Source: an uncultured Lachnospiraceae bacterium (GTDB taxonomy: Bacteria > Bacillota > Clostridia > Lachnospirales > Lachnospiraceae). Taken from it: a stretch of 56,408 nt of DNA. A program made the translations under genes and the position numbers. The stretch spans positions 1 to 56,408 of the forward strand of contig CAMSTM010000002.1 of the NCBI GenBank assembly GCA_947063675.1. The letters are read 5' to 3'. Of this stretch, positions 432 to 18,714 are shown piece by piece. Numbering within the stretch: the first letter of the stretch is position 1; each line of letters begins with the position of its first letter. The notes beneath the pieces are model-generated. The model had not been told where the DNA came from and did no database searches. It worked only from the letters and a program-made list of their open reading frames with translations.

Positions 432-761
432 TCAAGAATCTTTTTCAATTCTATATGCTGTTACCTGCATAGGATATGTTTCTGCAATCTCTCCAGCAAA
501 CCAAATCCGTACTCTACTGCCTTCAGGAAATGTTCCAATTTCTTCTCCATTGTAATCACTCTCTAAGAAAACAACATATTCTGCTCCCGTTTCATCTCGT
601 ATCAGTATATTGCTTTCTTTGATTTCCAAAACTGTCCCTACTATCGTATTTTCTTTGCCCACATCACTTTTCCCAAGCTTCATATATAGCACCACTAATA
701 CAATTGCCAGTAATAGTATGGATACAGAAATTCCTATCGCTATTTTCTTTTTACTTTGCAT
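432..761 (-). CDS. Membrane-anchored DUF3221-like small protein
   Basis: About 109 residues. The N-terminus has a few lysines and one hydrophobic segment (about residues 6-26), so it is a single membrane anchor or uncleaved signal. The exported part begins with TIVGTVLEIKES, continues through ILIRDETG and ends with SRVRIWFAGEI and a beta-rich tail. This is the small beta-barrel layout of DUF3221 (YobA-like) proteins, whose function is unknown. An ATG at 767 is too close to the ribosome site; AAAGGA is correctly spaced for the ATG at 761, giving an 11-base overlap with the protease gene and likely translational coupling. It is the last gene before a terminator. A role protecting the cell from, or partnering, the protease is inference. 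Confidence 0.7.
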   Translation of the reverse strand: MQSKKKIAIGISVSILLLAIVLVVLYMKLGKSDVGKENTIVGTVLEIKESNILIRDETGAEYVVFLESDYNGEEIGTFPEGSRVRIWFAGEIAETYPMQVTAYRIEKDS

Positions 762-1626
762 ACCCATTATCCTTTAACCAGTTTACCAGTGTAGTAGTAA
801 TTCTTCTACTATAATTCCCTCCGTGCGTATGGATACCGACAGCCTGATTTCCATATGTACTATTATAAAAATATGTTGGTGAGCCACTCTCGCCGCCTGC
901 GGTATCCGCTGTATGCATAAAACGGTTCGTTGTGATATTGCTAACCGTTCCAGCACAAGTCCACATATAATATCCTGCTAAATCAGCCGGATACCCTGTT
1001 ACTCTTATGTTTGTGGTTCCTATGCTGTTTCCACTGGTTCCATGAAGCCCAAACCATCCAGTAGTATTTCCAATATTACTGTCTAATACCATTATTCCAT
1101 AATCCCAGTCTGCTTCGCTACCAGTATACTTGGTATCAACATAATATTTTGTCATATTAGCCGTTATAGGTTTAGATGAGCCATTTCTTCCCGCATATAC
1201 CGTAACCGATTTTGCCTTACTTGTGGATGACTTAAGGCAATGCCCCGCCGTCAGCATAGTATTAGGTGAAATCATAAATCCTGTTCCTCTGAAAGTTTGT
1301 CCATCTTCCATAGTAATACTTAAATATGCTATTGCATAATAAGGAGAAATTGTTGTATTGGTAACCTTCGTTCTTTCATCGGTTCCAATAACTGATCTTT
1401 CTAAAATGGTCTCTGAAGCTGCAGTATCAGCTACCATAGAGTATGTAGCTGTCTCTGGTAAATCAATAATTCTCTCTGTACCATTTACCACATCTACTTC
1501 CAATAGCTGTTCTGTTTGTGCTGTCCTTGAATCCCCTTCACTATCTTGTGGAATTTCCTGTGCATATACAGTGATACCACTAAACAATAACAACATTACG
1601 CTAACAATAGAAATTATTTTTTTCAT
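751..1626 (-). CDS. Secreted V8-like (S1B) serine protease
   Basis: 291 residues: signal peptide (about 1-22), a propeptide to about residue 90, then a trypsin-fold domain. The catalytic triad is visible: His129 in LTAGHC, Asp175 in DWDYGIM and Ser247 in GGESGSP. The late GIHTHGG motif matches the GIH motif of Staphylococcus V8 and Bacillus glutamyl endopeptidases, whose histidine helps bind a P1 glutamate, so Glu preference is a reasonable guess. The context around the active serine resembles the Bacillus enzymes (TAGGxSGSP). It is co-transcribed with the DUF3221-like gene, which overlaps its end. It lies on the same strand as the RiPP locus, whose exporters lack a built-in peptidase, so a role in maturation of the exported peptide is possible but unproven. 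Confidence 0.87.
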   Translation of the reverse strand: MKKIISIVSVMLLLFSGITVYAQEIPQDSEGDSRTAQTEQLLEVDVVNGTERIIDLPETATYSMVADTAASETILERSVIGTDERTKVTNTTISPYYAIAYLSITMEDGQTFRGTGFMISPNTMLTAGHCLKSSTSKAKSVTVYAGRNGSSKPITANMTKYYVDTKYTGSEADWDYGIMVLDSNIGNTTGWFGLHGTSGNSIGTTNIRVTGYPADLAGYYMWTCAGTVSNITTNRFMHTADTAGGESGSPTYFYNSTYGNQAVGIHTHGGNYSRRITTTLVNWLKDNGYAK

Positions 1627-2579: not shown

Positions 2580-3482
2580 CTATTCTAATATAACCTGACA
2601 TTCACCGGAACTTTCCTGCGGAGCATTATATGACCGTGTATGTTCGTCAAATTCCTGTTGAGAATATTTTTCAATACTAATTAATGTGCCATTCCCTTCC
2701 GCTGTTAGGTTATTATAATCTCGGACAGTATAGATATCCACTGTTCCGTCCCCATTTTCAGAACGTATTACACCTTGAAAATTCCCACTGCCTAAATCTT
2801 CTCCATTGGATGTCAGAATATCTTGAAAGAAACGAACTTTTTCTCCATTGAAAAACCATTGTTCAGTTTTAAAATCATAAGTGACGCCAAAAGCTTCGTA
2901 TTCTTCAATCATTTTTTGTCTTTCAGATGCCGACAGCGATTCACCTGCACTAGCTGCTATCAATGGAGGATTTTTAATTTCATCAACATTACGAGCCGCA
3001 AACTCTGCATCTGTAAATTCCCTCAACTCAAGCAACTTTCCACTTGGATCATAAGAGCCATCTTCATTTCGCACTAAATTGTTTACATCTCGAACAGTAT
3101 ATACATCTACTACACCATTTTCATTGAAAAAATCCACACCTGCCCGTGAACCATCTTCTAATGAATAATAATCCTCAAACCAACGTACCGCTTTTCCATT
3201 ATAGTATAATTCATCTTTTCCGGCATCATAAGTCATGCCAAACTGCTCGTAAATTTTAAACCGTTCTTCTAAAGCTGTTTTTTCATCTACGTTTTGAGAA
3301 TTATCTCCAGCTACCGCATTGAGAATCGGAGAAGAAGCAGCCGAAGGCTGGTTTTGTTGCATACTTTCCTCTGCATGTGCAGTATTGCTCCCCAGTGAGG
3401 ATGCCGTCATCCCACAGCCCGAAAGACCTTCAACAAACAACATACATACAAGGGTAAAAACAAGTTTCTTTTGATTTTTCAT
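2580..3482 (-). CDS. Lipoprotein with two tandem repeat domains
   Basis: 300 residues. A lipoprotein signal ends in LSGC (Cys23), followed by a low-complexity Ser/Ala/Gln linker. Two similar units follow, about residues 71-164 and 188-282. Each has an acidic helix, FG(M/V)TYD, a YYNGK or FFNGE motif, VR(W/F)F, then G-(V/T)-VD(V/I)YTVRD-x-NNL and an acidic tail ending in EF. Related single units occur in Clostridia next to BlaR1/M56-like sensors, in my recollection. The protein would sit on the outer face of the membrane. It has its own promoter with OmpR-type repeats, so it is probably a target of the two-component system immediately upstream. Envelope sensing or immunity to the RiPP are guesses. 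Confidence 0.75.
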   Translation of the reverse strand: MKNQKKLVFTLVCMLFVEGLSGCGMTASSLGSNTAHAEESMQQNQPSAASSPILNAVAGDNSQNVDEKTALEERFKIYEQFGMTYDAGKDELYYNGKAVRWFEDYYSLEDGSRAGVDFFNENGVVDVYTVRDVNNLVRNEDGSYDPSGKLLELREFTDAEFAARNVDEIKNPPLIAASAGESLSASERQKMIEEYEAFGVTYDFKTEQWFFNGEKVRFFQDILTSNGEDLGSGNFQGVIRSENGDGTVDIYTVRDYNNLTAEGNGTLISIEKYSQQEFDEHTRSYNAPQESSGECQVILE

Positions 3483-3614: not shown

Positions 3615-5036
3615 CTAAATTACAAAGGAAAATCGCACACCAGTAGATGTATTGCACACTAAACATTTACTTCCATGCCGCTGTAAAATTTTTTGTGTAA
3701 TATACAAGCCCAATCCGCTTCCACCTGTCTTCCTGCTTCTTGACTGATCAATACGATAAAATGCATCGAACAGTTTCGAAATACAATCTTCCGGTATATT
3801 TGTTCCAGTATTTTCAACTGAAAACAAAAATTGATCCTCTTCAACTTGTGCAATAATGTCAATTTCCGCTCCTTGTGGTGAATAAATTATTGCATTACCA
3901 ATTAGATTTGAAAACACTTTTTTCATAAGCATCTTATCTCCATTGATATAAGCTGCCTTTGGCATATCGCAGTGTATCTGTAAATCCTTATTAGTCGTTA
4001 AATCCTCTGTTTCATTTAAATACTGGCAGATAAGTTGTACACAATCAATTTTATCACTTTTTAACTCTGAATTAACTGTTTCCAATCTTGAAACAGTTAA
4101 AATTTCCTGCACCAATGTTTCAAGAATATTCACAATTTCCAAAGACCTTGACAAATATTTCTTATGGTCCTTATACGCCCCTACACCCAACAACATTCCT
4201 TCTAACTGCCCTTTGATAACTGTGATTGGTGTTTTCAACTCATGAGACACTGCTGAAAAGAAATCTAGCTGAGCTTGTTCTATCTTTTTCTCATGTTCAA
4301 TATCTGCTTCCAATTTTTTATTTGCATTTTGCAGGTCAGAAAGCGCAACAGAAAGATTACAAGATAGAATATTAAGGCTTTTTTCCAATATTCCAAGTTC
4401 ATCAGTTCTGTCCTCCCTTAACCGCCACTCCAAGTGCAAATCAGACATTTTTTCAGATATACGGCTAATCTTTAATACTGGTTTTGTAATTATGTGAGCA
4501 TACAGTCCTGATGCAACAAGTGCAATCACACTAATAACACACAGCAGCAAGGGTAAAATACGAAAAAAAGATTGTTGCAATTCAGCAACCTGTTCTGCCG
4601 TTCCATATACCATTAACATATAGCGATCGGTACTGTCAGCAAAAGCAAAATAATAACTGTTTGATAAAATTGGAACATTTTCGGAATAATCTTCTTCCGA
4701 GGCTGCTATTATTATCCCATTATTCAAACCATTTTCCTCTTGCAATGTTGGAAGAGATACCTGTAAACCATTATCCGCATACAGCTCGACATAACTTATT
4801 TCTGTATTTTGTATAAACTGATCAAATAATCCCCCACTTTCCTGAAAAGATACCTGTTCCAGTTCAAGTATGAAGTCCTTTGCCCGATCATCCAAGACAT
4901 CATTCAGTTTACTAGAATATGTCTGCGGCATAATCCATGCCAACAACCCAAAAACGAGGAGACAAGCGCATAGCAAAAAAAATGTTGTTATAACAAATAC
5001 CTTTGCAAATAGACTATCCTTTATTTTCTTTATCAA
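3615..5036 (-). CDS. Membrane sensor histidine kinase of the RiPP-locus two-component system
   Basis: About 473 residues from a TTG at 5036 (23-base overlap with the regulator gene; AGAGGAG lies 12 bases upstream). A farther upstream ATG at 5114 would force a 101-base overlap and is less likely. Domains in order: TM1, an extracellular sensor of about 120 residues, TM2 (LPLLLCVISVIALV), HAMP, a HisKA domain with SHELKTP (phosphoacceptor His265), then a HATPase domain with NLIGNA, VENTGTNIP and GGSGLGLYI. This is an EnvZ/VanS-type kinase. It lies downstream of its cognate regulator and next to the lipoprotein it probably controls. The signal, possibly the peptide product or envelope stress, is unknown. 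Confidence 0.9.
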   Translation of the reverse strand: MIKKIKDSLFAKVFVITTFFLLCACLLVFGLLAWIMPQTYSSKLNDVLDDRAKDFILELEQVSFQESGGLFDQFIQNTEISYVELYADNGLQVSLPTLQEENGLNNGIIIAASEEDYSENVPILSNSYYFAFADSTDRYMLMVYGTAEQVAELQQSFFRILPLLLCVISVIALVASGLYAHIITKPVLKISRISEKMSDLHLEWRLREDRTDELGILEKSLNILSCNLSVALSDLQNANKKLEADIEHEKKIEQAQLDFFSAVSHELKTPITVIKGQLEGMLLGVGAYKDHKKYLSRSLEIVNILETLVQEILTVSRLETVNSELKSDKIDCVQLICQYLNETEDLTTNKDLQIHCDMPKAAYINGDKMLMKKVFSNLIGNAIIYSPQGAEIDIIAQVEEDQFLFSVENTGTNIPEDCISKLFDAFYRIDQSRSRKTGGSGLGLYITQKILQRHGSKCLVCNTSTGVRFSFVI

Positions 5037-5691
5037 TTTTATACCCCACTCCTCTAATTGTCTGAATAAAGTCAATGCCGAGTTTCTTTCGTAAATTCTT
5101 AATATGTGTGTCAACTACACGTTCATCACCATAAAAATCATATTTCCACAACTTTTCTAAAAGGTTTTGTCGAGTTAATACTTGTCCTTGATGAGTTAAT
5201 AGTTCACGCAAAATTTCAAATTCTCTTTGTGTTAGTTCAAAAGAGTTTTCATCTACTGTGGCAGTATAACAATCCATGTGCAATATGAAATTTTTATATG
5301 AGATTGATTGATTCTCCCCGTTCTGTAACTCATTACTTCGTCGAAGCACTGCCGCAATTTTACGAATTAAAATAGGCATAGAAAAAGGTTTTGTTATATA
5401 GTCATCAACCTGCAAATCCAAACCTCTAATCTGTTCGTCCTCTCCACTTAATGCCGTAAGCATGATAATAGGTATTTGTGATTGCTTGCGTATAAATTCA
5501 CAAACGCCAAAACCATCAAGTTTAGGGAGCATAACATCTAGCAGTATTAAATTAAATTGATTTCTTGTAAAATAATCTATGGCTTCGATCCCATCATTGG
5601 CAACCATCACTTCATAACCAGCTTCTCGCAAAAAATTTTGTAAAAGTTCTTGAATATCTAAATCATCCTCAACAATTAAAATTTTTAACAT
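5014..5691 (-). CDS. OmpR/PhoB-family response regulator
   Basis: 225 residues: receiver domain with acidic residues in VEDDLD, phosphoacceptor Asp52 in LLDVMLPK and the switch lysine in DDYITKPF. The winged-helix DNA-binding domain (about 130-223) contains LTQREFEIL, the VDTHIKNLRKKLG recognition region and IRGVGYK. It is a complete family member of usual length. Translation begins at MLKILIVEDD. It overlaps the start of the sensor kinase gene. The three 11-bp-spaced repeats ahead of the lipoprotein gene are the best candidate binding sites. Confidence 0.93.
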   Translation of the reverse strand: MLKILIVEDDLDIQELLQNFLREAGYEVMVANDGIEAIDYFTRNQFNLILLDVMLPKLDGFGVCEFIRKQSQIPIIMLTALSGEDEQIRGLDLQVDDYITKPFSMPILIRKIAAVLRRSNELQNGENQSISYKNFILHMDCYTATVDENSFELTQREFEILRELLTHQGQVLTRQNLLEKLWKYDFYGDERVVDTHIKNLRKKLGIDFIQTIRGVGYKIDKENKG

Positions 5692-5764: not shown

Positions 5765-7510
5765 TCAATTATACATTCTGCTTTGAGTTACAAACATATT
5801 ATAATATCTTCCTCTGTTTTCCATTAATTCTTCATGCGTTCCTTGCTCAACAATGTTCCCCTTATCAATAACCACTATCTTATCACATAATTTTGTAATA
5901 CTCAACCTATGACTAACTATAACTACTGTTTTTCCATCAGCTAAAGAAGTGAATTTTTCATAAAACTCATTTTCTATTATAGGATCAAGACTTGATGTTG
6001 GTTCGTCCATTATTAATATTTTAGAATTTTCACGCAGTAATGTCCTCTGTATACATACCTTTTGCCATTCTCCACCTGATAATTCATGCGCACCTTCCCT
6101 AAGCTGCCCTAATTCTGTATCAATCCCATTAGGCAAACTATTTATAAGCCTATCCATTCTAAAATTATCGTTATCACTTAACTTAATTGAATTTCCAAAA
6201 TTACCTATTTGTAAATTTTCCTTTAATGTGAATTGATACCGAATAAACTTTTGAAATAACGGTACTGTAATATTTCTAAAATCATCTATTACTTCTGAAA
6301 GTTCATTGTTACCAATTTTTACTATGCCAGACGAAGGTTCATATAACCCTAATAATATATTTAACAATGTAGATTTACCACTTCCATTCTCACCAACTAT
6401 TGCTACTTTCTGATTTTGTTCTATAGTAATATTTATATTATTCAAAGTATTGTTTTGAATACCATGATAACGAAACGAAACATTCTCCAAAGTAATAGTG
6501 TAATCTTTAATTTTTTCTTGTTTTTTCTTTGAAAACTCAGGAATATTTTTAAATTCTTCCCAATCGTTGAAATATAAGGACACTTCATTAATATCAGAAA
6601 TAGTAATAAAAAGCGAAATCATACTGTTTACGATAGCTTGAGCAGCACCCATTACGAGAACAAAATTTCCTAACCCCGATCTATTATGAACTATGTCCAT
6701 GCATGTTACAACAACACATATTGCCATTCCAAAATTATGAACAAAAGCCAAAACAATTTCATACAAACAAAATTTTATAGATAAAATCATTTTTATTTTA
6801 AAGATTTTTCTTCGTTGAACTCGGATTATATTATCAAAAAAATTGGTTAGTTTAAATAATCTTATTTCTTTAACACTCTTTCTTTCCATTAATAAACTTA
6901 TAAAATAATTAAGTTTTCGTTCTTCTTTATTAAGCTCCACTTCTTGCGCATAATTCATAGTTACTTTTTTAATGCACATATATAAGTAAGGCAAAGCTGA
7001 AAAAATAATTACACAAGGAAAATACCATTTTACCTTAAAAAGCGCAAACGAGTATCCAGCTATAATCACAACCGGACTAACAATACCTATTATATCTTGA
7101 ATAAATTTAATTACAGAACTAACAATAGCATTATTAATTCTGTCCAAATAATCATATGTAACTACTTTCTCTAGCTCTTCCAACTTAATTTTACTGATTT
7201 TATCCGTTATTAACGAGAACAATTTACTCTGAATATTATACTGCATCTTAATTTGAATATGAGAATTTATCAATTCCATTATATCGATTGTAATTTGAGA
7301 TAAAATATATAATAAAATAATGATAAATACTATGGGATAATCAAAAAGAGTAGCAGATAATAAATCAATTATGATTTTATAGAAATAAGAGATTATTGGT
7401 TGTAAAATTGCACTTACGAACATTATCAAAATATTTAATTTGATTATTTTAAATGATTTTTTATCCAGAAATTCTTTTATTAATCCAAAATTATGTACTA
7501 ATCTTTTCAT
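5765..7510 (-). CDS. ABC exporter half-transporter (membrane domain fused to ATPase), second copy
   Basis: About 581 residues from the ATG at 7510, which has GGAG six bases upstream; the longer frame to 7570 lacks a ribosome site. The N-terminal half has about six membrane segments. The ATPase half shows Walker A GENGSGKST (about 373-381), signature LSGGEWQKV (about 477), Walker B ILIMDEP (about 498) and SHR (about 533). The enzyme is a type I exporter subunit without an N-terminal C39 peptidase. It probably dimerises with the neighbouring half-transporter encoded at 9460-7766, exporting the modified peptide or conferring immunity. A 255-base gap with a small frame and an inverted repeat separates the two genes. 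Confidence 0.88.
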   Translation of the reverse strand: MKRLVHNFGLIKEFLDKKSFKIIKLNILIMFVSAILQPIISYFYKIIIDLLSATLFDYPIVFIIILLYILSQITIDIMELINSHIQIKMQYNIQSKLFSLITDKISKIKLEELEKVVTYDYLDRINNAIVSSVIKFIQDIIGIVSPVVIIAGYSFALFKVKWYFPCVIIFSALPYLYMCIKKVTMNYAQEVELNKEERKLNYFISLLMERKSVKEIRLFKLTNFFDNIIRVQRRKIFKIKMILSIKFCLYEIVLAFVHNFGMAICVVVTCMDIVHNRSGLGNFVLVMGAAQAIVNSMISLFITISDINEVSLYFNDWEEFKNIPEFSKKKQEKIKDYTITLENVSFRYHGIQNNTLNNINITIEQNQKVAIVGENGSGKSTLLNILLGLYEPSSGIVKIGNNELSEVIDDFRNITVPLFQKFIRYQFTLKENLQIGNFGNSIKLSDNDNFRMDRLINSLPNGIDTELGQLREGAHELSGGEWQKVCIQRTLLRENSKILIMDEPTSSLDPIIENEFYEKFTSLADGKTVVIVSHRLSITKLCDKIVVIDKGNIVEQGTHEELMENRGRYYNMFVTQSRMYN

Positions 7511-7580
7511 ATTAATCTCCATTCTCTTATTAACTATAACGGGCTCAACGAACCACCCTAGTTCAAGCAACCGAGGTATC

Positions 7581-7765: not shown

Positions 7766-9460
7766 CTATTTATACCATTTAGCCTGCGAATTATAGTAAT
7801 TATAATAATTTCCCTTGAGTTCCATCAACTCCTTATGCGTTCCACTTTCAACAATTCTACCAGCCTTTATAAAAAACACTCTATCCGCCAATTTAGCCAA
7901 ACCTATTCTATGGGATATTAAAACTACAGTTTTTTTCTGCAAAACTTTTTTAATTATATCAAATTGTTTTTTTTCTGCTATAGCGTCTAAACTAGCTGAT
8001 GGTTCATCGAATATAATAAAGTCTGAGTCTTTATACAACGCACGGCATATCGCTAATTTTTGCCATTCTCCCAAAGATATATCTATTCCATTATCATAAA
8101 ATTCTTTTCCCAAGTTAGTATCCATACTATATTTTACTTCCATTAATTCGAGAAGTTTTTGAATTTCACATTTATTTATTGCGATATAAGTATTACCTAA
8201 ATAAACATTTGTCTCAATGTTCATATTAAAACATACAAAATCCTGAAAAACTGCACTGCTCTCCTTTATACCCAAAGCAAGCCTGCCTTCATCTGGAGTT
8301 ATTAATTGTGCCATAACTTTTGCCAATGTGGATTTACCGCTTCCGTTATCACCCACCAAAGTAATTATCTCTCCTCTATTTATTTTAATATTAATATTAT
8401 TTAAAACATGCTTTCGATTTCTATAAGAAAACGAAACATTCTTCATTATTAAAACATCTTTTTCATTTTTTTCGATTATATACGAATCTTCAACATCAGT
8501 TTCTGAATAATTAATAACCATATATAAATCTTTTATATAAGCCATGTCCTGATAACTTGAAGATAATATACCAATTATAGATGAAGAAATAGAAAAAAAA
8601 CTAGCATGGCTTTGAATTATTACAATCACTTGTTCTATTCCAATTTGCCCTTTAGATAAATCAAAAAGTAATAATAGCCAAATAAATAATTCGCAACCAT
8701 ACATTACTATTGTCCAAATAGCATTTATAATTGTCCATTTTTCTACAATCTTAAAATGTCTCTGTTCCATTTCCTTAAATTCATATACTCTTTTTTTATT
8801 TATCCAATCATTTATTTTATAAGCACGTATTTCTTTTAAATTATCTTTGTTACATAATAGCTGCAACAAATAATCGTGCCTTCGACCTTTGGCATCTTGA
8901 AATTTGGCTAAGGAAATATTATCATCTGCAATTTTTAATGAATATATATTCTGAACAAAAATTAGCACTATAAAAACCAATAAATATTTATAATGAATAT
9001 TTATTATCAAAACGCCGATGCTTACTATGCTAATAAGATTTGCAATCACATACAAAATATTATTCAAAGAATTACAAACTATATTTTCGATTGCTTTCTT
9101 GGCACGCTTTATTCTTAAATAAAGTTCTGCATCATCAAAATCCAACAAATTAATTTTGTTCAACTTGCAAAACATTTGACTATAAAAAAATTCTTGTATT
9201 TTTATATTGAAAAGCTCACTAACCGCACCAATTATTGACGTTTTTATTCCTTTAACACCCATAATTACTATATACAATAATAACCAGGTAATTATACTCA
9301 ATATATTTTCATAATTTACTAATTTTCTTGTTATGTTCTGGGTGAGAATAAGCTCAACGGGTTGTAATAATGCAAAAAAGGCATTTAGCAAAAAAAGTAT
9401 CCCTATGTAAACAGGTGCTGTTTTAATTATTTTTCCAATTAACCAAATATAATATTTCAT
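7766..9460 (-). CDS. ABC exporter half-transporter (membrane domain fused to ATPase), first copy
   Basis: 564 residues with membrane segments through about residue 300, then an ATPase domain: Walker A GDNGSGKST (370-378), signature ISLGEWQKL (461-469), Walker B FIIFDEP (481-487) and SHR (516-518). The signature is ISLGE rather than LSGGE, so this may be the degenerate half of a heterodimer with the second copy, in which LSGGE is normal. No C39 peptidase domain is present. It is the first gene after the precursor peptide and its terminator, so some read-through or a local promoter must supply it. Export of the RiPP is the likely role. Confidence 0.88.
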   Translation of the reverse strand: MKYYIWLIGKIIKTAPVYIGILFLLNAFFALLQPVELILTQNITRKLVNYENILSIITWLLLYIVIMGVKGIKTSIIGAVSELFNIKIQEFFYSQMFCKLNKINLLDFDDAELYLRIKRAKKAIENIVCNSLNNILYVIANLISIVSIGVLIINIHYKYLLVFIVLIFVQNIYSLKIADDNISLAKFQDAKGRRHDYLLQLLCNKDNLKEIRAYKINDWINKKRVYEFKEMEQRHFKIVEKWTIINAIWTIVMYGCELFIWLLLLFDLSKGQIGIEQVIVIIQSHASFFSISSSIIGILSSSYQDMAYIKDLYMVINYSETDVEDSYIIEKNEKDVLIMKNVSFSYRNRKHVLNNINIKINRGEIITLVGDNGSGKSTLAKVMAQLITPDEGRLALGIKESSAVFQDFVCFNMNIETNVYLGNTYIAINKCEIQKLLELMEVKYSMDTNLGKEFYDNGIDISLGEWQKLAICRALYKDSDFIIFDEPSASLDAIAEKKQFDIIKKVLQKKTVVLISHRIGLAKLADRVFFIKAGRIVESGTHKELMELKGNYYNYYNSQAKWYK

Positions 9461-9725: not shown

Positions 9726-9899
9726 TTATGACGCAACCGCATATTTGATTGTGCATCCCTTCCACCAAGAACCATTACAGGTAAAAGAACCCGAACACCT
9801 AAACGGGTTCTTACTGCAAGTGAATGTTGTAGGGCTACTACAAGACTGATCACGCGGCTCAATACCGGTTGTAACTACTACAGGATTAGTATACTTCAT
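9726..9899 (-). CDS. Five-cysteine RiPP precursor peptide (candidate ranthipeptide or sactipeptide)
   Basis: 57 residues, with GGAGG seven bases ahead of the ATG. The gene lies 56 bases downstream of the radical SAM maturase and upstream of two ABC exporters. The N-terminal leader (MKYTNPVVVTTGIEPRDQS) is Cys-free. The core has Cys at 20, 28, 35, 41 and 49 (spacing 7, 6, 5 and 7 residues), rich in Ser, Thr and Gly. Phe-x-Cys occurs three times (FTC, FRC, FTC), followed by SWWKGC and a short tail. Cys-rich core, small Cys-free leader and adjacency to a SPASM maturase with a separate PqqD-like protein are the hallmarks of thioether RiPPs. It does not match the SCIFF, subtilosin or ruminococcin C pattern as I know them. 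Five cysteines is an odd count, so one may stay free or form a different link. Confidence 0.85.
   Translation of the reverse strand: MKYTNPVVVTTGIEPRDQSCSSPTTFTCSKNPFRCSGSFTCNGSWWKGCTIKYAVAS
9785..9812 (-). other. Strong hairpin inside the precursor coding region
   Basis: AAGAACCCG (9785-9793) and CGGGTTCTT (9804-9812) form a perfect 9-bp stem around a 10-base loop within codons 30-39 of the precursor, and T residues follow it on the transcribed strand. It may stabilise the mRNA or slow translation between core segments. Confidence 0.5.
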
Positions 9900-9955: not shown

Positions 9956-11074
9956 TTACAGTAATGAGGTGTTCTTAGTTTTATCAAAATCCTCTAAAAT
10001 ACCTTTCTTTCTAAAATAACAATCTCCATCTGTCTCCTGCACCGATCCATGTTGCAATACCATCGCAATGCAGCCCTTTCCGCATATTGACTGCCATACG
10101 CACTTTTTACAATTATGTATATATTCAATTCCAAACCTTAAAAACCATATCAATTTGGAAAAATCTGAAGATTCAACAATTTCTTGTAATGTATTACAAT
10201 TTACATTGCCAACAGAATATAAATCATCTGAAAACAACTGGCACAAATATACATTTCCTAATGGATCAATTCTCGGCACAAGTCCTCTTAATTTTCCTTC
10301 ATCACCAAATAAAATAGGACATCCACCAGAAAATGTACCTTTAGGCAAACCGATATGCATTCCCTCATCATTAAGTTTTTTGATTTCCTCACTTGTCGTC
10401 AAGAAATTAAAAAGTTCCTCCTTTTCATTTTGTTTTAACACTAATAAGTCTGTATGACTACTTGTTCTTCCAACTGGTGATAACGCTGCAATATCCACAT
10501 GTGTTATCCCTAATGATTTCATAAATGTAAGGAATGGTATTACATTGTCCTTGTTATGGGCTGTTAAAGTAAATCTTACTGGTATATTTTCCTGATACCC
10601 TTCATCGAGCAGAAATCGCAATCCACGCATAGTTCTTTCAAAATTACCATTTCCGCATAAAACATCATGAATCTCTGCATTTGTTCCATTTAGGCTTATC
10701 TGTACACCCATTTGACTATTTACAAGTTTTCTGGCTTTATCCTTATCTATTAAAGTTGCATTAGTTATCATCAATCGTGTGGAAATTTTTGATTCTCTTA
10801 AAACATCAATGAAGTCCCATATCTGAGGATGTAAAAGAGGCTCACCACCGGATAAAGTTACGGATGATTCTGGATCATCCTTTGGAATGCTTGAAATTAT
10901 ATTTTCAAATGCATTTATATCTAAAATATCTTTTTTATTACCACTTTCATTGTAGCAATGAATGCATCTCAAATTACAGGTATTAATTATCTCTATATAT
11001 GCTCCCTTAATTTCATATTCTTTTGAAACATTTAAAAAACTATCTTTTTTTATTTCAATCATTTTGCTTTTCAC
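9956..11074 (-). CDS. Radical SAM/SPASM peptide maturase
   Basis: 372 residues. The SAM-binding cluster motif CNLRCIHC gives Cys33, Cys37 and Cys40 (CX3CX2C), with GGEP at 76-79. The C-terminal SPASM domain has all seven expected cysteines: 252, 278 (GNVYLC, the Gx4C element), then CX2CX5CX3C at 322, 325, 331 and 335, and 352. This binds two auxiliary Fe-S clusters. Known members install thioether or carbon-carbon crosslinks in peptides. The enzyme has no N-terminal recognition domain of its own; that function is supplied by the PqqD-like protein six bases upstream. The precursor gene follows directly. Assignment as the maturase of the five-Cys peptide is strong inference from the gene order. 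Confidence 0.93.
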   Translation of the reverse strand: MKSKMIEIKKDSFLNVSKEYEIKGAYIEIINTCNLRCIHCYNESGNKKDILDINAFENIISSIPKDDPESSVTLSGGEPLLHPQIWDFIDVLRESKISTRLMITNATLIDKDKARKLVNSQMGVQISLNGTNAEIHDVLCGNGNFERTMRGLRFLLDEGYQENIPVRFTLTAHNKDNVIPFLTFMKSLGITHVDIAALSPVGRTSSHTDLLVLKQNEKEELFNFLTTSEEIKKLNDEGMHIGLPKGTFSGGCPILFGDEGKLRGLVPRIDPLGNVYLCQLFSDDLYSVGNVNCNTLQEIVESSDFSKLIWFLRFGIEYIHNCKKCVWQSICGKGCIAMVLQHGSVQETDGDCYFRKKGILEDFDKTKNTSLL

Positions 11075-11080
11075 CTCTTT

Positions 11081-11356
11081 CTAATCAATTTCCTGAACTA
11101 ATCCCGCTTTGCATATTGCTTCGATCACATTTTTGCAATCATTTTCTATCTGTTCAATAGTTACTTCTTCTTTATTAATAATTTGTTCATATATGTATGC
11201 CGCCAGCTCATCAACTGTTTTTCCATCGCAATTCTGCCACATATAAAATGCGATCTCATTCAAGGTAATCATTTGATTACCATTTGCAAGAACTAAATAT
11301 TTTTCACCCATCTTCTCATAAGTCTTATTTATTTTCTTTAATACTGTATTCTTCAT
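11081..11356 (-). CDS. PqqD-like RiPP recognition element
   Basis: About 91 residues starting at MKNTVLKKIN; the upstream ATG at 11401 lacks a ribosome site. The MITLNEIAFYMWQNCDG segment (about 29-45) and the final helices ending KAGLV are the conserved features of PqqD-family proteins, which bind leader peptides and deliver them to radical SAM enzymes. It ends six bases before the maturase gene, so the two are translationally close. This discrete protein is probably the leader-binding partner of the adjacent maturase. The 170 bases upstream are very AT-rich and contain the likely operon promoter, which could not be pinned down. Confidence 0.88.
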   Translation of the reverse strand: MKNTVLKKINKTYEKMGEKYLVLANGNQMITLNEIAFYMWQNCDGKTVDELAAYIYEQIINKEEVTIEQIENDCKNVIEAICKAGLVQEID

Positions 11357-11528
11357 TTTCCTCTTTCCTTTTCTTGTTATTGTGTTTTTTATATAATACA
11401 CTTTTATCTAGGCTTTTTAATTCACATGTAATAATTGCGAGTTTATATGTCATATTTCCCGATTTATCTATTTGAAATACTTAAAAACCTATTATTCTTT
11501 CATTTTTTACCACATATTCCTAAATTTT

Positions 11529-13037: not shown

Positions 13038-13874
13038 ATGTTGGATTTGCATCTGCTTGAACAGTTTGTCACCTTTTATCATACGGGTACGCTGGTGGAA
13101 GCGTCGGAACAGCTTCATATTTCGCAGTCAACCCTTACCAGAGGAATGCAGCGGCTAGAAGGAGAGTTTGGCGTGCCGCTTTTTAAAAGGACAAAGAACA
13201 GCATTGCGCTGACAGAGGCGGGAAAAATGGCGGCTTCCGATGCGGAAATGCTGTTACGCCAGTGCGACAACATGCTTTACAGGATTCGGGATTTTGACAG
13301 GAAAAGCCGGACCATTACATTAGGAGCCTGCGCTCCGGTTCCGATTACGGGTGTTATTTCATATATAACCAGCCTGTTTGCCGGTACGTCAATCTCTTCG
13401 GAATTAGAGAGCATTTCGGATTTGCTTTCGGGGCTTGCCGACGAAACCTATCAGTTGATTATACTTCCATATGCGCCCGATGATTTACCCGCCGTGCCCT
13501 TGGGGACGGAGCATTTATTCTTCTATCTTCCGGAAAATCACCGTTTTGCACACCGAAGCTCACTGACTGTCAACGAGATGAACGGAGAAAATATGCTTTT
13601 GTTTCAGGATATCGGTTTCTGGCATGACCTTGTAATGGAGAAAATGCCGGATTCAAGGTTTCTCCTGCAATCCGAGCGATACACTTTTTTAGAACTGGTT
13701 CGGAACTCCACCATGCCGTCTTTTACCACCGATGCGGCGCAGTATGAGCAGTCGGGGGATGGACGTGTGAGAGTTCCGATTGAAGATAAGCAGTTTAACG
13801 TGACTTATTATCTGGTCTGTAAACAGGAAAATAAGAAGAAATTCAGACAGCTTTTCGAGGCATTACTCATATAA
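13038..13874 (+). CDS. LysR-family transcriptional regulator
   Basis: 278 residues with an N-terminal winged HTH (ASEQLHISQSTLTRGMQRLEG, a family hallmark) and a C-terminal substrate-binding-like effector domain, slightly short for the family. It is divergent from the truncated aldo/keto reductase, with an operator between them, so it probably controls that gene and itself. The effector is unknown. Its 3' end overlaps the convergent DUF4037 gene by 12 bases. Confidence 0.88.
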   Translation: MLDLHLLEQFVTFYHTGTLVEASEQLHISQSTLTRGMQRLEGEFGVPLFKRTKNSIALTEAGKMAASDAEMLLRQCDNMLYRIRDFDRKSRTITLGACAPVPITGVISYITSLFAGTSISSELESISDLLSGLADETYQLIILPYAPDDLPAVPLGTEHLFFYLPENHRFAHRSSLTVNEMNGENMLLFQDIGFWHDLVMEKMPDSRFLLQSERYTFLELVRNSTMPSFTTDAAQYEQSGDGRVRVPIEDKQFNVTYYLVCKQENKKKFRQLFEALLI

Positions 13875-15041
13875 CCGCCGGATTTTTTCCTGAAAGCGGC
13901 AGTCGTCGGAAAAATCGGACAGACCGCCCACCTGACTTAAAGAGCCGATTAAGGGAATGTTTTCGAATGCCGTACCCTTTAGTTTTTTTGACATGGCCTG
14001 AGCAAACTTGTCGGCAAAAATGACCTTGATATTTCTGCCAAAATAAGATTCTATTTCATAGTCCACATAACCCGTAAGGCCGCTTGCGTTGTGCATAGCC
14101 GCAGCCATGGCCTGGGCCCTTACAAGGCTGTCCTCACGCCGGGCAAGCGAGGGGGCGTGCAGAGCGGAATCTATCAGCTCTCTGATACCGGCGAGCAGCG
14201 AATCGAAGGACTGCGAAGCAGACAGTTGCGGAACGCCGCCACAGTCAGCGGCCTCACGGCCTGACGGAAGAGATGCGGATTTGCTGCCTGCAGAAAGCCT
14301 GTCAAAAGCCGTTCCGAACCATTTGCTATAAGGCGCATAGGTATCCGTGTAAAGAAAGCAGAGACGTATCAGCCGTTCGGCGATTCTTGCGCAGATAATG
14401 ACAGAGCCGGTTTCGTCGCCGCATTCTCCGCAGCGCCGTACAAAAGCCTGCTCGGAGGCAATGATATTCCAGTTAGAAGCAATCAGGTAGGCTTTTACGT
14501 CCCTGGGATAATACTTTAAAGGCGATATTCTGTCCATAACCTTCAATTTGTCAATAAACATGGTTCCCGACACCAGCGAAAGCAGGCGGTGTTCCGAAAA
14601 GGCAAGCCAGTCGGCAGGCTGTAAGCCGGACAGGTCTGCAATGCCGATGCGCTCGATAAGAAATTCCTCAAAGGTTTGAATGAAAATGAGAGGATTTACT
14701 TTTCCGCTGTCAATAAACTTTGCATGCCGGACGCCGTTATCATTGGGGTCGGGCTCTGAAAAGTTTACGCTGTAACCTTTATACCGGTAAGGAAGCGTTT
14801 CAGAAAAAGTGTCCATTATTTTCTGCTTTTTGACGGTGTCCTCCGGTTTCAAAAACAGATAAAAGCGGGGGCCCCACATATGGTCCCTCGACACTTCGTC
14901 GTCATACCCGAGAACATCAGAGCCATAACCAATCAGTCCGGCCGAGTACTCCAAATCCGGGTAATGCCTGTCCAGAATCGGTTTTGCAATTTCCAGAAAA
15001 AAGTCCCTTGAAAGTTCTAATCCTTTTATAAATTCAGCCAT
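13863..15041 (-). CDS. DUF4037 domain protein (nucleotidyltransferase-like fold)
   Basis: 392 residues from the ATG at 15041, which has GGGAGG six bases upstream; a longer frame to 15059 lacks a site. YSAGLIGYGSDVLGYDDE and RDHMWGPR near the N-terminus are typical of DUF4037 proteins, which have a nucleotidyltransferase-like fold of unknown substrate. A Ser/Gly-rich linker lies near residue 260. It is convergent with and overlaps the LysR gene, and lies 45 bases downstream of the ComB-like gene on the same strand, so they may be co-transcribed. Confidence 0.82.
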   Translation of the reverse strand: MAEFIKGLELSRDFFLEIAKPILDRHYPDLEYSAGLIGYGSDVLGYDDEVSRDHMWGPRFYLFLKPEDTVKKQKIMDTFSETLPYRYKGYSVNFSEPDPNDNGVRHAKFIDSGKVNPLIFIQTFEEFLIERIGIADLSGLQPADWLAFSEHRLLSLVSGTMFIDKLKVMDRISPLKYYPRDVKAYLIASNWNIIASEQAFVRRCGECGDETGSVIICARIAERLIRLCFLYTDTYAPYSKWFGTAFDRLSAGSKSASLPSGREAADCGGVPQLSASQSFDSLLAGIRELIDSALHAPSLARREDSLVRAQAMAAAMHNASGLTGYVDYEIESYFGRNIKVIFADKFAQAMSKKLKGTAFENIPLIGSLSQVGGLSDFSDDCRFQEKIRRLYE

Positions 15042-15944: not shown

Positions 15945-17321
15945 ATGACAGAAGTAAAAATAAAACAGGGATATTTAAAGGGGGTAGAAAAAGACGGTTA
16001 TACGGTTTTTATGGGAGTCCCCTATGCGGCGCCGCCGGTTGGCGCCTTAAGATTTTGCGCACCCGAAGAATGCGCGCCATGGGAAGGCGTCTACCATGCC
16101 GACCGCTTCGGGAAAACCTGCTGGCAGGAGCGGGAGGAAAAGGGTTCCTTTTATGACGTCGAGTTTTACCGCAACGCCGATTATTTAACGGATTTTGACG
16201 AGGACTGCCTGTATTTGAATATCTGGGTTCCGGGAAATGAGGGAGTTTTGGAGAAAAGTGTTTCTGCAAAAGATATTCCCGCAGAGAGTTTTTCTGCGAA
16301 AAAGCTTCCGGTGGCGTTCTGGATTCACGGAGGGGCTTTTAACCATGGTTTCGGGCATGAAATGGAATTTGACGGCGCGGAGTATGCAAAAAGGGGAGTA
16401 ATTCTGGTAACAATTAATTACAGAGTAGGCGTATTCGGCTATCTTGCCCATGAGTGGCTGAGCCGGGAAAGCTCTTATGGCATCAGCGGCAATTACGGGA
16501 TGCTGGACCAGATTGCCGCGCTAAGGTGGGTTAAGGAAAATATCGAAGCCTTTGGCGGCGATGCCGGAAATATTACAATTTTCGGACAGTCGGCAGGGGC
16601 AATCAGCGTTCAGGGACTTGTCTCCTCCGATTTGACAAAGGATTACATTGCAAAGGCAATCATGCAGAGCGGCGGCGGATACGGGACATCTCTGGTAAAT
16701 ATGACGGCACTGGCGGAGGCGGAAGAAACGGGAGCGGAATTTGTAAGGTTCTGCGGGGTGGAATCACTTGAGGAGCTGCGGAATATGAGAGCGGAAGAAC
16801 TGCTTGAGAAACAGACCGCCTTTTGCAAAAAGTTTTCCGAACAGGGGCTTATATTTATGCCGGATATTGACGGATATGTGTTGAAAGAAAATTACAATTC
16901 CGCCATAGAAAACGGGAGAATCAAAAAGATTCCTTATATGATTGGCGCAACCTTGAATGATATTGCGGCCTCGCCGGAGCAACTGGCGCAGGGGATTCGC
17001 GGACTGCTTTATGACGGGTGTATCCGGTTTGCACAGATGCTGGAAAGGCAGAAAAAGGAAAGCGGCGCAGGGAATGCCATTTATGTTTATGATTTTGTAC
17101 GGCAGCTTCCCGGGGACGAGGCAGGAGCGTTCCATTCGGCGGAACTCTGGTACATGTTCGGAACGTATAAACGGTGCTGGCGGCCTTTTACCGGGGAAGA
17201 TGCAAGGCTCAGCGAAAAAATGCTGGACGCATGGACGGGTTTTATGAAAAACGGCACGCCGGGAGAGGAATGGAAGCCGTATACAGAGGAAAAGCCGTAT
17301 GTGCAGGTGTTTGATGTATGA
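15945..17321 (+). CDS. Type-B carboxylesterase
   Basis: 458 residues from the ATG at 15945, placed by AAGGA upstream; an ATG nine bases earlier overlaps that site. Family signs: FMGVPYAAPPVG, EDCLYLNIWVP, the oxyanion loop in WIHGGAF, the nucleophile elbow FGQSAGA (Ser216) and the catalytic His397 in AFHSAEL. The usual acidic triad residue in a DE motif is not evident (the equivalent region reads ATLNDIAASPE), so activity may rest on another Asp/Glu. No signal peptide, so cytoplasmic. Para-nitrobenzyl-esterase-like; natural substrate unknown. Confidence 0.9.
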   Translation: MTEVKIKQGYLKGVEKDGYTVFMGVPYAAPPVGALRFCAPEECAPWEGVYHADRFGKTCWQEREEKGSFYDVEFYRNADYLTDFDEDCLYLNIWVPGNEGVLEKSVSAKDIPAESFSAKKLPVAFWIHGGAFNHGFGHEMEFDGAEYAKRGVILVTINYRVGVFGYLAHEWLSRESSYGISGNYGMLDQIAALRWVKENIEAFGGDAGNITIFGQSAGAISVQGLVSSDLTKDYIAKAIMQSGGGYGTSLVNMTALAEAEETGAEFVRFCGVESLEELRNMRAEELLEKQTAFCKKFSEQGLIFMPDIDGYVLKENYNSAIENGRIKKIPYMIGATLNDIAASPEQLAQGIRGLLYDGCIRFAQMLERQKKESGAGNAIYVYDFVRQLPGDEAGAFHSAELWYMFGTYKRCWRPFTGEDARLSEKMLDAWTGFMKNGTPGEEWKPYTEEKPYVQVFDV

Positions 17322-17351
17322 GATGAAGGGCAGCTTAAAGAGGCGTATTTT

Positions 17352-18714
17352 ATGAGCAAAATATTTAATGTAAATGGAAATTGTATACCGGAATTGCACT
17401 ATATGGTGGAGCTTACGGAACGGCTTGGGCAGATAAAGATAATGGTGGAAGCCGGACAGTATTTTACCATAAACCGTGCCAGACAATATGGAAAGACTAC
17501 AGTGCTCAAGGCACTGGCAAATTATCTGAAAGAAGAATACCTGGTGGTTAGTCTGGATTTTCAGAAGATGAGCTATGCAAATTTTGAAAATGAGCAGGCA
17601 TTTGTAGTGGCTTTTGCGGGTGAGTTAATCGATAATGTGGAAAGTATGCCTGAAGAGATATATGAGAGGCTGAATGCTTTTGCGGAAGAGCGTGTGCGGA
17701 ATCTGACGCTCCTGTCATTATTTCGGGTGATAAACAAATGGTGCGGGCAGTCAGAAAAGAAAATCGTACTAATGATTGACGAGGTGGACAGCGCAACAAA
17801 TAATCAGGTGTTTCTTGATTTCCTTGCCCAACTGCGCGGATGTTATATCAGCAGGGATACGAAACCGACTTTTCAGTCGGTAATTCTTACAGGTGTATAT
17901 GATGTGTGCAATATCAGGAGAAAGATTCGGCCGGAAAATGAACATAAAGTAAATAGTCCCTGGAATATTGCGGCCGATTTTTCTGTAGACATGAGTTTTT
18001 CTGTAAAGGATATTGAGGGAATGCTAAAAGCGTATGAAGATGATAATCATACGGGAATGGATATTGAGAAAATATCCTGTCTTCTTTATGATTATACCTC
18101 CGGTTATCCTTATCTGGTTTCGCGTCTCTGTAAGTTTATGGATGAACAGATAGCCGGAACGAATGATTTTCAGAATAAAAAAAGCGTATGGACGGAGGCG
18201 GGGGTTCTGGAAGCGGTTAAGTTATTGCTTGAAGATAGAAATCCGCTGTTTGAGTCGCTGATGAGTAAGTTGAATGATTTCCCGGAGCTTTGCGATGTGA
18301 TTTCCGCTCTGCTGTTTCAGGGAAAGAAAGTTGCATATAATCCGGATGATGAGGTAGTTTGGGAGGCTTTAATGTTTGGATTTGTAAAAGTGAAGGATTC
18401 CGGCGTCTGTCTTGCCAACAGGATATTCGAGACACGGCTATATAATTATTTTCTTTTGACAATTTCCGAACAGAACAGCAGACTTTACGAAGAAGGCTCG
18501 AGACAGAAAAATCAGTTTATTATTAATGGTCATTTTAAAGATATGGCATGGAAATGCATATAATGAGCGGGGTGAAAAGCAGCTATCGGATTATATGAAT
18601 TATTTTCATCTGGATAAAGGATACATGCTAAGTTTTAATTTTAATCAAAAGAAGAAAATTGGAGTGAGGGAGATTATTGTGGGGAACAAGATGCTTATAG
18701 AGGCTGTGGTTTAA
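17352..18714 (+). pseudogene. AAA-ATPase/PD-(D/E)XK protein inactivated by deletion and frameshift
   Basis: The N-terminal ATPase reads through with RARQYGKTTVL (Walker A-like) and VLMIDEVD (Walker B). At about 18,535 the frame ends with FIINGHFKDM..., while the next frame (+1) resumes with LKIWHGNAYNERGEKQ, LSDYM, GYMLSFNFN and KKIGVREI to a stop at 18,714. Intact relatives have about 70 residues between NGH and the E-L-K-I-W motif, including the acidic nuclease residues, so this copy has lost them. The fragment lies just upstream of an intact related gene. It is clearly broken, with no sign of a programmed shift. Confidence 0.75.

Follow-up and report, generated by a model that had tools for sequence, protein, structure and literature searches.

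The window analyzed here, i.e., the whole stretch of 56,408 nucleotides, contains a small ORF at 9726..9899 within a group of genes that lie on the same strand:

751..1626, minus strand, trypsin-like serine protease, possible leader protease (PF00089, 4.2e-11)
2580..3482, minus strand, lipoprotein-like protein with two domain copies, candidate for immunity or sensing; the domain is common with a BlaR1-like tail
3615..5114, minus strand, sensor histidine kinase (PF00512 and PF02518)
5014..5691, minus strand, OmpR-type response regulator (PF00072 and PF00486)
5765..7570, minus strand, ABC half-transporter 2 (PF00005, 1.2e-28), counterpart in 10 of 11 loci including the window
7766..9460, minus strand, ABC half-transporter 1 (PF00005, 5e-23), counterpart in 10 of 11 loci including the window
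9726..9899, minus strand, predicted RiPP precursor of 57 aa with an MxYxxP and IEPR leader, a five-Cys core and an aromatic residue after each Cys
9956..11074, minus strand, radical SAM/SPASM maturase, 372 aa (GTG start) or 368 aa (ATG start) (PF04055, 1.6e-20; PF13186, 6.4e-8)
11081..11401, minus strand, PqqD-like protein, probable leader-binding RRE (PF05402, 3.5e-10)

On the minus strand, the genes for the PqqD-like protein and the maturase are located upstream of the precursor and those for the two ABC half-transporters downstream, and a C39 peptidase domain was not found in either half-transporter. The precursor ORF comprises 57 codons, starts with ATG and is directly preceded by GGAGGAGG, a strong ribosome-binding site. 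Its Cys residues occupy positions 20, 28, 35, 41, and 49, which leaves the N-terminal 19 residues free of Cys. The initial annotation had described the ORF, its ribosome-binding site and its placement between the maturase and the exporters in just this way, and we find all of it as described. Between precursor and exporter, no terminator was reported and promoter-like sites number 12, as compared to a shuffle mean of 12.0. Neither Pfam nor NCBIfam, whose Cys-rich precursor models include SCIFF, CLI_3235, and Clo7bot, matched the window precursor. For nine of the 12 distinct precursors described below, no NCBIfam model scored at E < 0.05 (best E 0.058), in agreement with the earlier view that the peptide lacks a curated family name, and the best E-value in PHROGs was only 0.03. 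A PDB profile search with nine precursors returned Cys-rich modules of receptors at E 0.1–0.6, which we dismissed as an effect of composition. In the window's own genome, the precursor profile matched once, and SPASM matches number eight overall.

With the precursor alone as query, 194 related genomes yielded only the precursor itself, and an earlier scan of genome contigs with a single protein as query gave no match. With the maturase as query, for which the counts are lower bounds as candidates of some genomes were scored in part in most searches, relatives were found in 1 of 37 genomes of the same genus (itself; 1e-60), in 2 of 397 genomes of the same family (itself and G833, locus L015, 46% identical; E ≤ 1e-30), in 4 of 391 genomes of the same class (itself and three remote enzymes at 30–32%; 1e-30) and in 1 of 319 genomes at the level of the phylum (itself). 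Among the best 80 of 532 matches, a scan of genome contigs gave at least four loci at 42–47% identity, from Petralouisia muris (L019), Paenibacillus jilunlii (L020), P. silagei (L022), and a Eubacterium MAG (L021). The same kind of count, again a lower bound, is 6 of 100 genomes for the genus of P. jilunlii (1e-80), 1 of 299 for its class and 1 of 250 for the family of the Eubacterium MAG, the single genome being the search center itself in the two latter cases. A further cassette at 41% identity lies on MT838633.1 (L099) from human feces, which is filed as 'Bacteriophage sp.' (unverified). It contains a PqqD gene, a maturase gene and two precursor genes and is probably a bacterial contig rather than a phage. 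A viral origin was rejected, as two scans of viral contigs contained no relative. Plasmid records gave no match at 1e-30; for the L019 enzyme, 22 plasmid records matched at 1e-15, with 24–28% identity in the 20 listed. In total, ten further cassettes were obtained from two genomes of Lachnospiraceae or of the same family, the Eubacterium MAG, the fecal contig, and six genomes of the genus Paenibacillus, which together with the window give 12 distinct precursors. The family is rare and patchy in the genomes searched. As the contig results cover the best 80 of 532 matches and candidates were partially scored, it is probably larger than the members given here.

The order of the genes is conserved. 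In all 11 loci compared (window, L015, L019, L020, L021, L022, L099, and L114–L117), the maturase gene is preceded by the PqqD gene and followed by a precursor, and in ten of them the two ABC genes follow next after the precursor, the exception being the 5-kb contig L099. Two precursors each are present in L021 and L099, and one of those in L021 lies ahead of PqqD. Thirteen precursor genes encode 12 distinct peptides since the peptides of L022 and L117 are identical. Gene content shows a conserved cassette in which a PqqD-like protein and a radical SAM/SPASM maturase are accompanied by one precursor, or two, and by two ABC half-transporters. The radical SAM/SPASM RiPP gene order assigned to the window in the initial annotation recurs, with PqqD-like protein, maturase and precursor, in ten further cassettes. 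The trypsin-like protease was considered as a fixed part of the cassette and rejected, as the searched stretches of the ten other loci contain no match at 1e-4; no protease is conserved across the cassette.

The CxxxCxxC motif and a SPASM-type set of Cys residues, the spacing of which we take to be that of a full SPASM domain, are invariant in seven aligned maturases. The model for StsB, the maturase of streptosactin, matches all seven maturases scanned and is the model with the lowest E-value over them (1.6e-40). StsB (NF045574) is also the best match of the window maturase but is only remote kin because the score of 128.4 bits does not reach the curated cut-off of 625. The window maturase stays below the cut-off of every NCBIfam model among the best 25 of 88, including PapB (81.5 bits, cut-off 340) and CefB of the Cys-every-fifth system CefA/CefB (65.6 bits, cut-off 600). 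Other matching HMMs represent mycofactocin, WgkB, and heme-pathway enzymes, and the best solved structures for the maturase profile are the anaerobic sulfatase-maturating enzyme and SkfB (E ~1e-20), followed by remoter ones. In a tree of 21 rows chosen by hand, ten maturases of the five-Cys loci group together as a single clade (100/98), to which the three remote class members do not belong. ORFs with the Cys motif are present in all ten family loci but in 2 of the 79 radical SAM loci that are more distant, a comparison made without a Shine-Dalgarno criterion, as choosing the first start codon left the site flagged in only two of the ten family loci. The two outlying ORFs are not precursor-like and lack the (unreliable) Shine-Dalgarno flag. 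The clade and these counts indicate that precursor type and enzyme clade go together. L016–L018, the class members with 30–32% identity, contain no motif ORF and fall outside the maturase clade, and were not accepted as family members.

Seven homologous precursor genes (five close Paenibacillus copies, L015 and L019, with the window's own gene left out) are under purifying selection: in 11 pairwise comparisons, ten of which lie among the five close Paenibacillus copies, dN is 0.03–0.16 and dS 0.33–1.8, and no codon for Cys, Phe, Tyr, or Trp is replaced. These data bear on the question of whether 9726..9899 could be a chance reading frame with the true precursor located elsewhere. The small size of the ORF is all that speaks for this. 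Against it stand homologous ORFs after the maturase in ten other loci, the low dN/dS of the seven homologous genes, and a control with first-order Markov windows. When ORFs of 35–80 codons with at least five Cys, first 15 residues free of Cys, and at least three [FYW]xC were counted, 200 random windows contained eight motif ORFs, none of them with a Shine-Dalgarno site, as compared to one with such a site in the real window. We regard a chance ORF as refuted by the homologues, together with the selection data and the control, and its probability as negligible. That the five-Cys ORF is the RiPP precursor of the radical SAM/SPASM cassette is, in our judgment, close to certain.

All 12 distinct precursors begin with MxYxxP and 11 of them contain five Cys, the first peptide of L021 having four. 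The check proposed in the initial annotation, a search for homologous precursors next to SPASM enzymes, returned precursors with a conserved Cys count, so that the first refuting condition named there did not arise. A feature that becomes visible from the homologues, and that was absent from that annotation, is the distribution of aromatic residues. For each Cys, at least one aromatic residue lies between it and the next Cys or, for the last one, the C-terminus (59 of 59 Cys if His is counted, 57 of 59 without His), and a few gaps contain two or three aromatics, so that the partner is not always unique. Of the 47 interior gaps, 46 have an aromatic residue at position -2 relative to the Cys that closes the gap if His is included and 44 if it is not, and all 12 peptides have one after their last Cys. 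Position -2 of the first Cys is aromatic in none of the 12 (by eye). The distance from aromatic residue to Cys (Ar-x-C) is fixed and that from Cys to aromatic residue varies. The five peptides from Paenibacillus, being close copies of one another, should not be treated as independent in these numbers. In shuffles within the core, the -2 spacing has p-values of 0.0006–0.014 for F/Y/W/H and 0.0003–0.047 for F/Y/W, whereas the occurrence of an aromatic residue behind each Cys does not reach significance in individual peptides (p 0.05–0.31 for F/Y/W/H, up to 0.73 without His). For this reason, the direction of pairing rests on the conserved ends of the core. The lone -2 exception with His counted is the SWWKGC of the window peptide, in the fourth gap of which the Ar-x-C spacing is broken and C-x3-W is kept. 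"Three Phe-x-Cys, then SWWKGC", as the peptide had been described, is thus true of the window sequence, but WWKGC is the single departure from the aromatic-x-Cys rule of the family rather than a motif. Likewise, the number of five Cys, which had been called unusual for being odd, is explained once every Cys has an aromatic partner downstream.

Seen together, the five-Cys peptides look like a real and as yet unnamed family of radical SAM thioether-type RiPPs, the bond type being one that we infer from sequence. In the biosynthetic route that we consider somewhat better than evenly probable as a whole, a leader-dependent RiPP with five unnested Cys-to-aromatic thioethers would be exported, freed of its leader, and used in competition or signaling. 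The PqqD-like protein would bind the MxYxxP leader and present the peptide. The maturase would abstract a hydrogen from the aromatic residue after each Cys, and the Cys sulfur would be joined to the alpha or the benzylic beta carbon of this downstream residue. The product would contain five small unnested thioether rings, each from a Cys to the -2 aromatic residue three to seven positions further on, and neighboring rings would usually be separated by one residue. The two ABC proteins would export the peptide and a trypsin-like protease would remove the leader, outside Paenibacillus probably at an Arg two to four positions before the first Cys. Such an Arg is present in 7 of 12 precursors, all outside Paenibacillus (by eye). 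The Paenibacillus precursors lack it, and some cores of the family hold Lys, at which trypsin could also cut. The mature peptide would most likely be a narrow-spectrum competition or signaling peptide.

Precedents for several of these steps are found in known sactipeptides. According to the passages of PMC8172795 consulted, streptosactin has unnested rings that close three residues after the Cys (Cys25-Ser28 and Cys31-Gly34, with Cys15 printed in one passage), and AlbA uses Phe acceptors in subtilosin, where an exchange between Phe and Tyr is tolerated and Ala is not. For RumC, a gut sactipeptide, a trypsin cut after Lys19 is activating in the part of PMC6779426 consulted.

The maturase could also act on the aromatic-x-Cys units themselves and crosslink the aromatic residue at position 1 to the Cys at position 3, either as a cyclophane of the triceptide kind or as a backward thioether. 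At most four rings would then form, and the residues at the two ends of the core, the first Cys and the final aromatic one, would have another role. This arrangement, which we hold to be rather unlikely, accounts better than downstream pairing does for the one spacing that is constant across the family, present in 46 of 47 interior gaps, and the interchange of F, Y, W, and H would suit a ring chemistry. However, two residues kept in 12 of 12 peptides, the first Cys and the aromatic residue at the C-terminal end, would remain unpaired, and SWWKGC in the window breaks its spacing. We prefer Cys-to-downstream-aromatic bonds because a partner is available even to the last Cys and none lies upstream of the first, and also because the window exception keeps C-x3-W while it breaks Ar-x-C. 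A different modification altogether, e.g., epimerization or other C-C bonds, with the Cys residues ending up in disulfides, as free thiols, or bound to a metal, appears improbable. SPASM enzymes have many outcomes and the HMMs for mycofactocin, WgkB, and heme-pathway enzymes do match, but five Cys cannot all pair as disulfides within one chain and the conserved pattern of Cys and aromatic residues points to the pair as the substrate. The two crosslinking chemistries are separated by a simple mass prediction, -10 Da for five bonds as compared to -8 Da for four. As a tentative suggestion, one radical SAM enzyme may form Cys-aromatic bonds of a type not previously described in this form, be it five benzylic thioethers to Phe, Tyr, Trp, or His or a repeated aromatic-x-Cys crosslink. 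Equally tentatively, such a product may consist of a row of very small rings, most of them separated by one residue, and be made by Clostridia-type bacteria and Paenibacillus, mostly beside a BlaR1-like sensor.

With a short precursor that has a conserved leader and lies beside a SPASM enzyme and a PqqD-like RRE, the five-Cys cassette corresponds to the general description of radical SAM RiPPs. Sactipeptides are defined by a bond between the Cys sulfur and an alpha carbon, triceptides by three-residue cyclophanes of the type Ar-X-X in which a ring carbon of the aromatic residue is joined to a beta carbon, and PapA, the precursor of freyrasin, has the spacing C-x3-D. Compared by class description only, triceptides resemble the five-Cys family in the interior Ar-x-Cys spacing and the exchange of F, Y, W, and H and differ from it in the repeated Cys as the third residue and in the leftover first Cys and last aromatic residue: with a repeated Ar-x-X, 46 of 47 interior gaps fit, one gap is broken, and these two ends stay unpaired. 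The topology proposed for the five-Cys peptides with downstream thioethers is most likely nearest to that of streptosactin (GggA/GggB, also StsB), a type II unnested sactipeptide that likewise has short unnested rings from Cys to a downstream residue (PMC8172795, in part). Streptosactin has two rings with Ser and Gly as acceptors, whereas aromatic acceptors and five rings are proposed here, and in the five-Cys cassette, unlike in streptosactin, the PqqD-like protein is a separate gene. In the ranthipeptide system PapA/PapB, one SPASM enzyme installs several Cys-to-downstream thioethers, six on PapA (PMC8172795, in part). PapA links Cys to Asp, but, judged by eye, no Cys in the precursors described here has Asp or Glu at the fourth position after it. 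Ruminococcin C shares with the five-Cys precursors a Cys-rich core and a leader of about 20 residues, and an activation of the trypsin type is proposed here too. It has four Cys and two maturases in the parts of PMC6779426 and PMC8188230 consulted, unlike the five-Cys cassette.

The motif of the family was not found in the literature searched, the scope of which excluded most subscription journals, nor by term in the part of PMC9413430 consulted. In the part consulted, a 2016 survey (PMC5100339) mentions several species of Paenibacillus as having putative, uncharacterized clusters for sactipeptides. The label "previously unannotated" is therefore apt insofar as no curated model matches but must be qualified because the clusters of that survey are left unspecified. 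What emerges is a coherent family of RiPPs, as yet without a name, that follows a simple rule open to testing, namely an aromatic residue after every Cys.

In 8 of 11 loci, a BlaI and BlaR1-like (M56) pair adjoins the cassette:

L015:6546-8089, BlaI/BlaR1-type pair
L019:6133-7679, BlaI/BlaR1-type pair
L020:12910-14764, BlaI/BlaR1-type pair
L022:12915-14767, BlaI/BlaR1-type pair
L114–L117, BlaI/BlaR1-type pair in each

A weaker pair in L021 (527-2150; 28 and 20% identity) is located about 2 kb off behind other genes. Neither the first 13 kb of the window nor L099 contains such a pair; an OmpR-type response regulator is found instead, and the one in the window (5014..5691) perhaps stands in for the pair of most relatives. 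Genes of the agrC/agrA type are next door in all six Paenibacillus loci. A literature search combining RiPP, BlaR1, and radical SAM gave a single match, which by its title concerns C. difficile extrachromosomal elements. The window lipoprotein has homologues in L015 and L019, and its domain, present in two copies, recurs in the C-terminal tail of the BlaR1-like M56 protein of L022 (BLASTP 1e-9):

window 2580..3482, lipoprotein with the common domain
L022:14348-14764, common domain in the tail of 13346-14767
L015:13693-14409, common domain

A weaker match (0.001) connects two L015 proteins, the lipoprotein and the BlaR1-like protein. Pfam gave nothing above cut-off for the lipoprotein, with Glyco_hydro_16 below threshold in L015. 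The lipoprotein may bind the peptide as an immunity protein or a sensor. The company of BlaI/BlaR1 and the domain common to the lipoprotein and the BlaR1-like protein suggest contact with the cell envelope and provide a handle on immunity.

Mobilization genes are located beside the cassette in two loci, where MobC and a relaxase are encoded, with a Tn916-type integrase nearby in L015:

L015:4104-6141 and 16998-17999, relaxase, MobC, and Tn916-type integrase
L019:3485-5525, relaxase and MobC

The cassette may thus be cargo of an integrative mobilizable element, which would explain the patchy distribution. Dedicated exporters, mobilization genes, agr neighbors, and BlaR1-type sensors would all suit a role in competition or signaling, and the product is probably a peptide of this kind. 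With its spread over distant Bacillota and two loci beside mobilization genes, the family is a candidate source of narrow-spectrum antimicrobials.

Other peptides were encountered near radical SAM genes. SacP23 of P. polymyxa, a CLI_3235-type peptide with a TIGR04068 maturase in the part of PMC10731318 consulted, was set aside as lying outside the five-Cys family. L016 (4428-8294) encodes a remote maturase (32%) with a PqqD-like gene and a different, MKYSKP-type peptide, besides a YcaO-like protein and other genes judged by eye; predicted from its genes by eye, it is another cassette with a similar leader. Two near-identical peptides of 39 aa that end in GSCYSCKGCK are encoded just after a radical SAM gene in L055 (9319-9438 and 9565-9684) and probably represent a RiPP unrelated to the five-Cys family.
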